Source: an uncultured Christensenella sp. (lineage in GTDB: Bacteria > Bacillota > Clostridia > Christensenellales > UBA1750). From it: DNA of 52,208 nucleotides. Position numbers and translations under genes: made by a program. The notes under the pieces were generated by a model. The model searched no databases, was not told the DNA's origin, and worked only from the letters and a program-made list of their open reading frames with translations. This document shows positions 22,779-25,367 of the stretch, piece by piece (position 1 is the stretch's first letter; each line of letters opens with the position of its first letter). The DNA lies in assembly GCA_948468595.1 (NCBI GenBank), contig CAOKIU010000008.1, positions 1 to 52,208 on the forward strand, written 5' to 3'.

Positions 22779-23024
22779 TTAGTCGATCGCGCCGCCCTTT
22801 TTGAGAACGGTCTTGACCGTCTGGGTGGGCTGAGCGCCCACGGAGAGCCAGTACTTGGCGCGCTCAACGTCCAGGGTGATGGCCTTGTCGTCCTTGACGG
22901 GGTTGTAGGTGCCGATTTCCTCGACGAAACGACCGTCGCGGGGGGTGCGGCTATCCGCCACAACAATGCGATAGAAGGGCTCGCCCTTCATGCCCATGCG
23001 CTTTAAACGAATCTTGACTGCCAT
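22779..23024 (-). CDS. rpsP: Small ribosomal subunit protein bS16
   Basis: An 81-residue 30S protein. [40 protein letters not shown] and the helix [20 protein letters not shown] are canonical. The length is normal. ATG at 23024 follows GAGGAGG. A promoter with a palindrome in its spacer lies between it and ffh. Confidence 0.98.
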
Positions 23025-23093: not shown

Positions 23094-24431
23094 TCAGAAC
23101 TTAAAGGGCATTCTGCGGCCCTTTTTGCCCATTTTCCCCATCCTGCCGAATTGCTTCATCATCGACTGGGTCTGCTCAAATTGCTTGAGCAGTTGGTTGA
23201 TCTGCTGCACCGTGGTGCCCGAACCCGCCGCGACGCGCCGCTTGCGCGAGGCGTTGAGCAGGGAGGGATTGCGCCGCTCCTTGGGGGTCATGGACAGGAT
23301 GATGGCTTCGGTCCTGGCCATGTTGCGGTTGAGCTCGTCCTCGTCCACCTCCTGGGCGATCTTGCTGCCGCCGGGGAGCATGGCGAGCATGTCGTTCATG
23401 CCGCCCATCTTGCGCATCTGCTGGAACTGGTCCAGAAAATCCTCCAGCGTGAACTGGTTTTTGCGTAATTTCTGCTCCAGGTCGGCGGCGCGCTTCTCAT
23501 CGACCAGGGCGCTTGCCTTGTCAATGAGGGTGAGCACATCGCCCATGCCCAAAATCCTGGAGGCCATGCGGTCGGGGTAGAAGGGCTCGATCTGATCCAG
23601 CTTTTCCCCGATGGAGGAGAACTTGATGGGCTTGCCCGTCACCGCCTTGATGGAGAGCGCCGCGCCGCCGCGCGTATCGCCGTCCAGCTTGGTCAGCACG
23701 ACGCCGGTCACGCCCAGCTTTTCGTCAAAGGTCTTGGCCACGTTGACGGCCTCTTGGCCGGTCATGGCATCCACCACGAGCAGGATCTCCTGCGGGCGGA
23801 GCTCGGCCTTGATCTGCTCCAGCTCGCGCATCAAATTGTCGTCGATCTGCAAGCGGCCCGCGGTGTCCACGATCATGACGTCCTTGATGGTGCGGATCGC
23901 CTCGCGCTTGCCCTCGCGGACGATGTTTACGGGATCGCCCTGGCCCATCTCAAAGACGGGAACCCCCACTTGGCCGCCCACCACCTGTAGCTGCTTTACC
24001 GCCGCCGGGCGGTAGACGTCCGCCGCCACCAGCATGGGCCTCTTTCCCTGTTTTTGCAGCATGCCGGCCAGCTTGCCGGCCAGCGTGGTCTTGCCCGCGC
24101 CTTGCAGGCCGATGAGCATGATCACGGTGGGCGGGTTGCCGGTGAACTCCAGCTTTGCCTGGGAGCCGCCCATCAGGGCGGTCATCTCCTCGCGCACGAT
24201 CTTGATGACCGTCTGCCCGGCGTTTAGGGTGGAGAAGATCTCCTCGCCCACGGCGCGATCGGTGACGCGCTTTACAAAGTCCTTGACCACAAGGTAATTG
24301 ACGTCGGCTTCCAGCAGCGCCATGCGCACCTCGCGCATGGCGTCCTTGACGTCCTTTTCGGTGAGCTTGCCGCGGCTGCTCAGTTTTTTAAACGCCGCTT
24401 GCAGTTTATCCGCGAGTCCTTCAAACGCCAT
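23094..24431 (-). CDS. ffh: Signal recognition particle protein Ffh (SRP54)
   Basis: A 445-residue SRP GTPase that recognises signal sequences on nascent chains. The N domain (LADKLQAAFKKLSSRGKLTE) is followed by the G domain with G1 IGLQGAGKTTLAGKLA, DVYRPAAVKQL, G3 DTAGR and G4 TKLDGDTRGG. The methionine-rich M domain (about residues 300-445) includes QMRKMGGMNDML, the RNA-binding IILSMTPKERRNPSLLNASRKRRVAAGSG helix region and a final GRMGKMGKKGRRMPFKF. ATG at 24431 lies inside the end of ylxM with GGAGG upstream. Confidence 0.98.
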   Translation of the reverse strand: MAFEGLADKLQAAFKKLSSRGKLTEKDVKDAMREVRMALLEADVNYLVVKDFVKRVTDRAVGEEIFSTLNAGQTVIKIVREEMTALMGGSQAKLEFTGNPPTVIMLIGLQGAGKTTLAGKLAGMLQKQGKRPMLVAADVYRPAAVKQLQVVGGQVGVPVFEMGQGDPVNIVREGKREAIRTIKDVMIVDTAGRLQIDDNLMRELEQIKAELRPQEILLVVDAMTGQEAVNVAKTFDEKLGVTGVVLTKLDGDTRGGAALSIKAVTGKPIKFSSIGEKLDQIEPFYPDRMASRILGMGDVLTLIDKASALVDEKRAADLEQKLRKNQFTLEDFLDQFQQMRKMGGMNDMLAMLPGGSKIAQEVDEDELNRNMARTEAIILSMTPKERRNPSLLNASRKRRVAAGSGTTVQQINQLLKQFEQTQSMMKQFGRMGKMGKKGRRMPFKF

Positions 24432-24762
24432 AAACGCCCTCCTTGTGCATGCCTTCGAGTATGCGCCGTGCCAAGAGCGTGTCCCCCCTGTCCAGCGCTT
24501 CCATCGCGCGCCCGGTCTGGGCGTGAATACTTCTGTATTTTTTGACGAGATGGAGCTTTTCCTCCATATCGGTGAGCGTCTTTTCCGCCTTGCGCAGCGC
24601 GTCGTTGACGGCCTGGCGGGAAACGGAGCAGGTCTGGGCGATCTCGGCGAGGGAAAAATCCTCCTCCACGCGCAGGCGCATCATCTCCAACTGCCGCTCT
24701 GTCAGCAGCGCGCCGTAGAAGTCCATCAGTATCGCCAGCTCCACACTGTGCGCAGGTTCCAT
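24421..24762 (-). CDS. ylxM: YlxM/UPF0122 family DNA-binding-like protein
   Basis: A 113-residue protein with a sigma-70 region 4-like helix-turn-helix: LTERQLEMMRLRVEEDFSLA then IAQTCSVSRQAVNDALRKAEKTL. YlxM is the usual partner of ffh and was proposed to act in the SRP pathway; streptococcal relatives bind SRP components and RNA. ATG at 24762 follows GGGAGG with seven bases between; the open frame up to 24852 includes the promoter and cannot be coding. The gene overlaps ffh by 11 bases, indicating translational coupling. Confidence 0.92.
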   Translation of the reverse strand: MEPAHSVELAILMDFYGALLTERQLEMMRLRVEEDFSLAEIAQTCSVSRQAVNDALRKAEKTLTDMEEKLHLVKKYRSIHAQTGRAMEALDRGDTLLARRILEGMHKEGVYGV

Positions 24763-24798
24763 GCGCCCGCCTCCCCTTTGCCCCGTGCGTCCGCAAAC

Positions 24799-24855
24799 AA
24801 AGTGCTTGACACCTTGGGCATTATACACGCTTCCGCCCCAACTGTCAAGCACTTT
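24799..24855 (-). promoter_or_regulatory. Consensus promoter of ylxM-ffh flanked by a perfect 13-bp inverted repeat
   Basis: On the minus strand a perfect TTGACA (24843-24848), 17-base spacer and TATAAT (24820-24825) precede ylxM. AAAGTGCTTGACA occurs at 24799-24811 and its exact complement TGTCAAGCACTTT at 24843-24855. One arm therefore contains the -35 box and the other lies just after the start site. The 31-base spacing would place both arms on about the same DNA face. It could be an operator for a dimeric regulator, or a 57-base hairpin in DNA. Confidence 0.75.
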
Positions 24856-24905
24856 TGCTTTACATTTCTTTTTTAGCCTTTACCCCTGCCCTTTGCGCGC
24901 TTTCC

Positions 24906-25367
24906 TCATTCCAAGGGCAGGCGCATGTACCCCTTCGCCTCCACAAAGCCCAGCTTGCGGTACAGCGGCGCGCCCTCGCGCGTGGCTTCCAGCAGAATGC
25001 TCCCCACGCCCCGCGCTTTTGCGTCCTCAATCAGGCTCTGCACAATGCGCGCGGCGATGCCCTTGCGCCGGTGCGCCGGCGCGGTGTAAATGTTCATCAA
25101 AAACGCGCATTTGCCGGTGGGATTTGCGCAGGTGGGCATCTCGGTGTGATAATCCGCCGAACCCACGCCCACCACCTCGTCGCCGCAAAGCGCCAGAAAG
25201 GTCGCGTGCTTGGTCTCATCGGAAAAATAGGCCGCCAGCGCCTCGTCCATGCCGCTCAAGTCCGCGCCGCGCGGCAGCTTGTTGGCGTCGATGAGCACGG
25301 TTTTGCGCAGCTCTACCAGCAGGGCGACATCTCCCGCGCCCGCCCTGCGCAGCTCCATTGCCTCCAT
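24906..25367 (-). CDS. GNAT-family N-acetyltransferase
   Basis: A 153-residue acetyltransferase. The core is FLALCGDEVVGVGSADYHTE, then the strand CAFLMNIYTAPAHRRKGIAA with the R-R-x-G-I-A acetyl-CoA loop, ILLEATREGAPLYRKLGFVE and the end YMRLPLE. The substrate is unknown. ATG at 25367 begins one base after the ftsY stop codon and is preferred for that coupling; ATG at 25358 (three codons in) has GGAGG too close. It is the last gene of the rnc-smc-ftsY run. An 8-bp repeat (CTGCCCTT/AAGGGCAG) spans its stop codon. Confidence 0.85.
   Translation of the reverse strand: MEAMELRRAGAGDVALLVELRKTVLIDANKLPRGADLSGMDEALAAYFSDETKHATFLALCGDEVVGVGSADYHTEMPTCANPTGKCAFLMNIYTAPAHRRKGIAARIVQSLIEDAKARGVGSILLEATREGAPLYRKLGFVEAKGYMRLPLE

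Follow-up and report, generated by a model that had tools for sequence, protein, structure and literature searches.

The operon discussed here lies on the minus strand of a 52,208-nt stretch of DNA from an uncultured Christensenella sp., referred to below as the window. Its first gene, ylxM (24421-24762, minus strand), encodes a 113-amino-acid protein of the UPF0122 family (PF04297, 2.6e-23; 82.6 bits against a curated cut-off of 22.7) with a helix-turn-helix (HTH) like that of sigma-70 region 4, and is the proposed regulator in what follows. With an 11-bp overlap it runs into ffh, encoding the SRP54 GTPase of the signal recognition particle (SRP) (23094-24431, minus strand; PF00448, 1e-73), and downstream of ffh lies an rpsP (S16) homologue (22779-23024, minus strand), an open reading frame named by eye. 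A GNAT acetyltransferase gene (24906-25367, minus strand) is situated between ftsY and ylxM. The HTH of the window's YlxM matches both profiles for sigma-70 region 4, PF08281 (6.7e-07) and PF04545 (1.6e-06). The AF2 model of the protein has a mean pLDDT of 90.8; its nearest folds in a Foldseek search are the solved UPF0122 proteins 1XSV and 1S7O, and the next neighbours are region-4 domains that bind the -35 element (E 0.08 and higher).

The promoter in front of ylxM matches the consensus at 12 of 12 positions, with TTGACA at 24848-24843 and TATAAT at 24825-24820 (both minus strand) separated by a 17-bp spacer. As the original prediction had it, this promoter is bracketed by a perfect 13-bp inverted repeat, AAAGTGCTTGACA at 24799-24811 (plus strand) and its exact complement at 24843-24855 (minus strand), which agree without a single mismatch. 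The opinion that such a match would hardly arise by chance is also borne out: among 20,000 dinucleotide shuffles of the 200 bp around the site, 2 contain a mismatch-free 13-bp inverted repeat whose arms stand 20-45 bp apart, and no other inverted repeat of at least 11 bp with that range of spacers is found elsewhere in the whole window. The pair of 13-mers, for which a genome search had been proposed, has a single occurrence in the 2.48-Mb genome. A bidirectional promoter was considered and rejected, there being no -10 hexamer 17 bp from the plus-strand TTGACA.

The conserved unit at this promoter is a 22-bp dyad, TGTMAAG-N8-CTTKACA, which was recognised in the ylxM upstream regions of 29 loci, and the window contains two such dyads rather than one palindrome. 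O1 (24843-24864, minus strand; TGTAAAGC-AAAAGT-GCTTGACA, full 22-mer TGTAAAGCAAAAGTGCTTGACA) is a perfect dyad whose right half contains the -35 hexamer, while its partner half-site TGTAAAGC (24864-24857) lies further upstream, outside the segment that the original prediction had covered. It is the sole zero-mismatch match to TGTMAAGC-N6-GCTTKACA in the window's genome, where 22 dyad-like sites occur at up to 3 mismatches vs. 2 for the reversed pattern. O2 (24790-24811, minus strand) extends from about +1, with the start of transcription placed from the -10 hexamer; its left half TGTCAAGC is intact and its right half degenerate, with 5 mismatches in all. Each arm of the 13-bp repeat is thus half of a dyad with a few spacer bases attached, so that the repeat amounts to the right half of O1 (upstream arm, 24843-24855, minus strand) facing the left half of O2 (downstream arm, 24799-24811, plus strand). 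The earlier placement of one arm over the -35 box and the other just past the start site agrees with these positions. The half-sites, CTTGACA and CTTTACA, themselves resemble -35 elements, and a half-site reads as the -35 both at O1 and in the rpsP promoters of Bacilli (below).

Conservation of the upstream arm in close relatives, the point on which the original prediction was said to stand or fall, is found in four of four congeners (L003-L006): O1, its left half included, is within 0-1 mismatch of the dyad in each, and O2 within 1-2 mismatches. The right half of O2 is decayed in the window and nearly intact in these four congeners. The 13-bp repeat as a conserved unit was rejected on the same comparison, since the inner perfect repeat of the congeners varies from 8 to 14 bp while their dyads keep to 0-2 mismatches. 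What survives of the proposed operator is therefore its operator-like nature and the conservation of both arms; the conserved unit is something other than a 13-bp repeat with a gap of 31 bp.

Far from being peculiar to the window's genome, as the surprise originally expressed at such an operator on an SRP operon would imply, the dyad, with at most 2 mismatches in the 14 specified positions, precedes ylxM by no more than 250 bp in 197 of 200 genomes; the reversed pattern does so in 0 of the 200, and shuffles give the dyad in 3 of 1000 cases. The dyad is found upstream of ylxM in 93 of 95 families, with 162 genera sampled. The 200 upstream regions comprise 70 from the window's order, out of 92 genomes with a YlxM match, and 130 from the phylum, the best of 367 genomes by score, so that the sample leans toward high-scoring YlxM proteins; places omitted by hand, with their sequence unseen, include a second copy (G071:C11) and a gene with an internal stop (G074). 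The three exceptions (L017, L047 and L050) all carry YlxM, and by eye L017 has a dyad whose spacer is shorter by one base. Relative to the last base of the -10 hexamer, O1 starts at -45 to -43 and O2 mostly at +6 to +9. Once the 3 of 200 loci that have no promoter call are left out, 120 of the remaining 197 have O2 only, 39 both sites, 25 O1 only and 13 neither at these offsets. Among named loci, mostly from Bacilli, a slightly relaxed pattern at up to 2 mismatches finds the dyad in 62 of 79 (reversed pattern, 1 of 79; L326, with 4 bp of upstream sequence, is omitted from the count). The 17 named loci that have no dyad at ylxM include 14 from enterococci, Weissella or lactobacilli. The dyad is in all probability a phylum-wide operator of the SRP operon, of which the window has one full and one half-decayed site.

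Genomes that have no ylxM bear directly on the identity of the protein involved. A YlxM match is missing from 29 genomes, 9 by search with the window protein and 20 by PF04297, and these yielded 20 ffh loci, of which 17 are readable (the partial loci L262, L264 and L265 were left out). In 16 of the 17, nothing resembling ylxM precedes ffh within 600 bp, and in all 16 of these the 400 bp upstream of ffh contain no dyad at up to 2 mismatches, the best dyad-like match having 3 to 6. Several of these upstream regions contain, by eye, what looks like a promoter. Genome-wide, the strict dyad is found in none of the 20 listed genomes that have no YlxM match, vs. 116 of 279 other genomes, a few of which may also lack ylxM (11 genomes lie outside the listing). 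The putative operator is thus absent where the putative regulator is absent, at the 16 ffh loci as well as across the 20 listed genomes. The remaining readable locus, L254, was scored as having no YlxM and is set apart: upstream of its ffh lies a stretch resembling YlxM, truncated and diverged, that retains an SRQAVHD helix, and no dyad is found within 1 kb.

Where the dyad does occur, it keeps largely to a few places. The labels Bacillus-like, Streptococcus-like and Bacillota are given to genomes on the basis of their sequence. The relaxed pattern has just two kinds of place in the 31 Bacillus-like genomes, an rpsP-type site (31 of 31) and a ylxM-type site (15 of 31), the latter 1.74-1.75 kb upstream of the former, and rpsP is seen adjoining the rpsP-type site in 22 of 30 fetched loci. 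The places of the two sites match those of the B. subtilis promoters that the ylxM passages of PMC10100781 describe as P1 (ylxM) and P2 (just upstream of rpsP). All 14 named Lactobacillales have the dyad, 9 of them, including 7 enterococci, directly upstream of rpsP; the enterococci have a site there in 7 of 8 cases. At L217, L219, L405-L410, L412, L415 and L416 the dyad is directly upstream of rpsP and its right half can be read as the -35. The rpsP dyad is also present in genomes whose ylxM promoter carries none. In the window, no dyad is found near rpsP at up to 3 mismatches; it is in Bacilli that the rpsP promoter carries one. Streptococcus-like genomes share an identical 22-mer, TGTCAAGTAACTTTACTTTACA (L218:1501-1522), spacer included, in 39 of 40 cases; it precedes rpmF-rpmG in the example read, and rpmF, by a strict motif, in 22 of 30 loci. 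This identity of the spacer exceeds what an operator alone would need. Both the enterococci and the Streptococcus-like genomes have YlxM and, in the loci read, no dyad at ylxM. With dyads at rpsP, rpmF or elsewhere in genomes that bear YlxM, strict autoregulation fails there. The reversed control pattern is found in 14 of 299 genomes overall, and in 1 of the 40 Streptococcus-like, 4 of the 31 Bacillus-like and 3 of the 14 named Lactobacillales genomes.

A large regulon was entertained and then rejected once the perfect sites had been placed. Among the matches listed there are 75 perfect sites, 40 in genomes with a known place for ylxM and 35 that cannot be placed in this way; 30 of the 40 lie within 250 bp upstream of ylxM and 10 elsewhere. 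In the 29 loci L217-L245, 19 adjoin ylxM (L233, whose locus is clipped, by its position on the contig) and 10 do not, of which 2 precede rpsP and 1 rpmF. The remaining ones look like chance occurrences: to judge from genes named by eye, their places include an Obg-like gene, truA and mobile-element genes, with the site inside the gene or close to it. Five exact dyads occur in G370, whose class is that of the window, and the one inspected (L226) is inside the Obg-like gene. L220 and L228, from different families, have TGTCAAGTTCCTTACCTTGACA in common downstream of a gene for a Cro/C1-type regulator, followed in L228 by open reading frames resembling tyrosine recombinases; this is probably an unrelated element.

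In the pooled analysis, covariation between YlxM and the half-sites points to the part of the protein that would be expected to read them. The set comprises 486 pooled half-sites from 237 genomes, those of 280 loci with a dyad at up to 1 mismatch, and right arms lying over a -35 were left out; column 1 of YlxM is residue 4 of the window protein, so that the residue number is the column plus 3. Of the 89 columns, column 50 ranks first in covariation with half-site position 4 and column 55 in covariation with position 8; both fall within the recognition helix, SRQAV-50-DALR-55. In contrasts between nearest relatives, Y50 goes with T at position 4 in 69 cases vs. 5, the strongest of 1344 tests, and the recognition helix accounts for 7 of the top 20 tests while holding 10% of them; high scores are likewise obtained for columns 63, 61 and 10, which lie outside the helix. 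The first analysis, confined to left arms, gave column 8 as the best partner of position 4 and did not have column 50 among its top 12. On the YlxM tree there are 3, 2 and 11 independent pairs on supported branches, numbers too few for significance.

Three lines, namely the loss of the dyad together with ylxM, its near confinement to a single locus and the pooled covariation with the recognition helix, argue for YlxM as the regulator. We think it quite probable, judging from these sequence comparisons, that YlxM is a DNA-binding repressor of its own ylxM-ffh operon and the dyad its candidate operator. A YlxM dimer would sit on the 22-bp dyad, each of its sigma-region-4-like HTHs reading one of the -35-like half-sites. 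At O1 it would cover the -35 hexamer needed by sigma-A and presumably exclude the latter, and at O2 it would cover the start site; occupancy of either site would then repress ylxM-ffh and, in Bacilli, the rpsP promoter as well. Repression is the suggested sign of regulation because the sites lie over the -35 and the start site. The ylxM passages of PMC8546722 cite YlxM of S. mutans as an accessory protein of SRP, one reported to bind both Ffh and the SRP RNA, and because of this reported binding, free YlxM may report the amount of unassembled SRP and so close a feedback loop on ylxM-ffh. The fuller proposal, which we hold tentatively and with slightly more doubt than belief, is that YlxM has two jobs throughout the phylum, as a subunit of SRP and as a repressor competing with sigma-A for -35 hexamers embedded in its operators, with free YlxM reporting unassembled SRP and adjusting the synthesis of Ffh and, in Bacilli, of S16 and L32.

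The dyad might instead be the operator of another conserved transcription factor for SRP and ribosomal-protein promoters, with YlxM merely encoded downstream. The Streptococcus-like genomes, with their nearly invariant 22-mer placed before rpmF-rpmG in the example, lend themselves to such an explanation, as do L047, where there is no dyad at ylxM, the rpsP sites of the enterococci, and the description of YlxM in print as an SRP component; yet another factor would not explain why the dyad is missing where ylxM is missing, why the top covarying columns of YlxM in the pooled analysis are in its recognition helix, or why the Bacillus-like sites are confined to the ylxM-ffh-rpsP locus, and we regard it as unlikely. 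That YlxM binds the dyad and activates or only tunes the promoter appears distinctly improbable. Activators normally bind upstream of the -35, while repressor sites overlap the -35 and the start site, and these are the positions occupied here. An activating or tuning role would fit the ylxM passages of PMC7042180, where P-ylxM of B. subtilis is one of a set of relatively strong sigma-A promoters from which those with a DBTBS-annotated factor had first been removed.

With its mostly complementary arms and its place at about +1 to +22, O2 could also form a hairpin where the ylxM mRNA begins, acting in stability or attenuation. O2 alone is the commonest form of the site, and its variable positions 4-19 and 8-15 can pair in 62% and 58% of cases, above all 500 shuffles of each, but a symmetric protein site or shared ancestry would give the same excess. 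Moreover, the consensus is shared by O1, which lies over the -35 and outside the transcript made from this promoter; O1 is present in 64 of the 197 loci, 25 of them having no O2; 38% of 158 O2 sites are unpaired at 4-19 (A/A, C/T or A/G), with most arms still within the half-site consensus. We regard a hairpin as highly improbable as an explanation. Finally, the repeat might be no operator at all, only the constraint on a consensus promoter combined with a chance repeat, given that TTGACA itself makes up most of the right half of O1. This we find scarcely credible: neither O2 nor the left half of O1 overlaps the promoter hexamers, the exact spacing of the dyad is kept in 197 of 200 genomes, and the repeat is very rare among the shuffles.

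The papers found leave the control of SRP level in these bacteria unexplained. The ylxM passages of PMC8546722, PMC5344976, PMC4993169, PMC8637298, PMC10100781, PMC7042180 and PMC3814617 name no DNA target of YlxM, and the literature searched for ylxM and, among the matches listed, for the motif halves, a scope beyond which most subscription papers lie, contains no such operator. An operator linked to YlxM across the phylum would give the HTH fold a job, name its target promoters and point to two residues for specificity; if the fuller proposal is true, the targeting of membrane proteins would be linked to the supply of ribosomes.

In comparison with known systems, the window protein is a member of UPF0122 (PF04297), with its gene directly upstream of ffh, and the difference is one of function: the family is known for an SRP accessory protein, and here it is proposed to act as a DNA-binding regulator. 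The likeness to sigma-70 region 4 is evident in the profile matches of the HTH, in the Foldseek neighbours and in the -35-like half-sites. However, YlxM is a stand-alone protein, and its proposed inverted pair of -35-like half-sites would work against sigma rather than recruit polymerase. Among classical autorepressors, those of the KorA and LexA types have operators that cover the -35 and +1, and KorA chains are among the Foldseek neighbours of the YlxM model (E about 0.3). The present system resembles theirs in having dyadic sites that overlap promoter elements of the regulator's own operon; it differs in its co-regulated product, the SRP GTPase, and in having a putative regulator that is itself a reported component of SRP.
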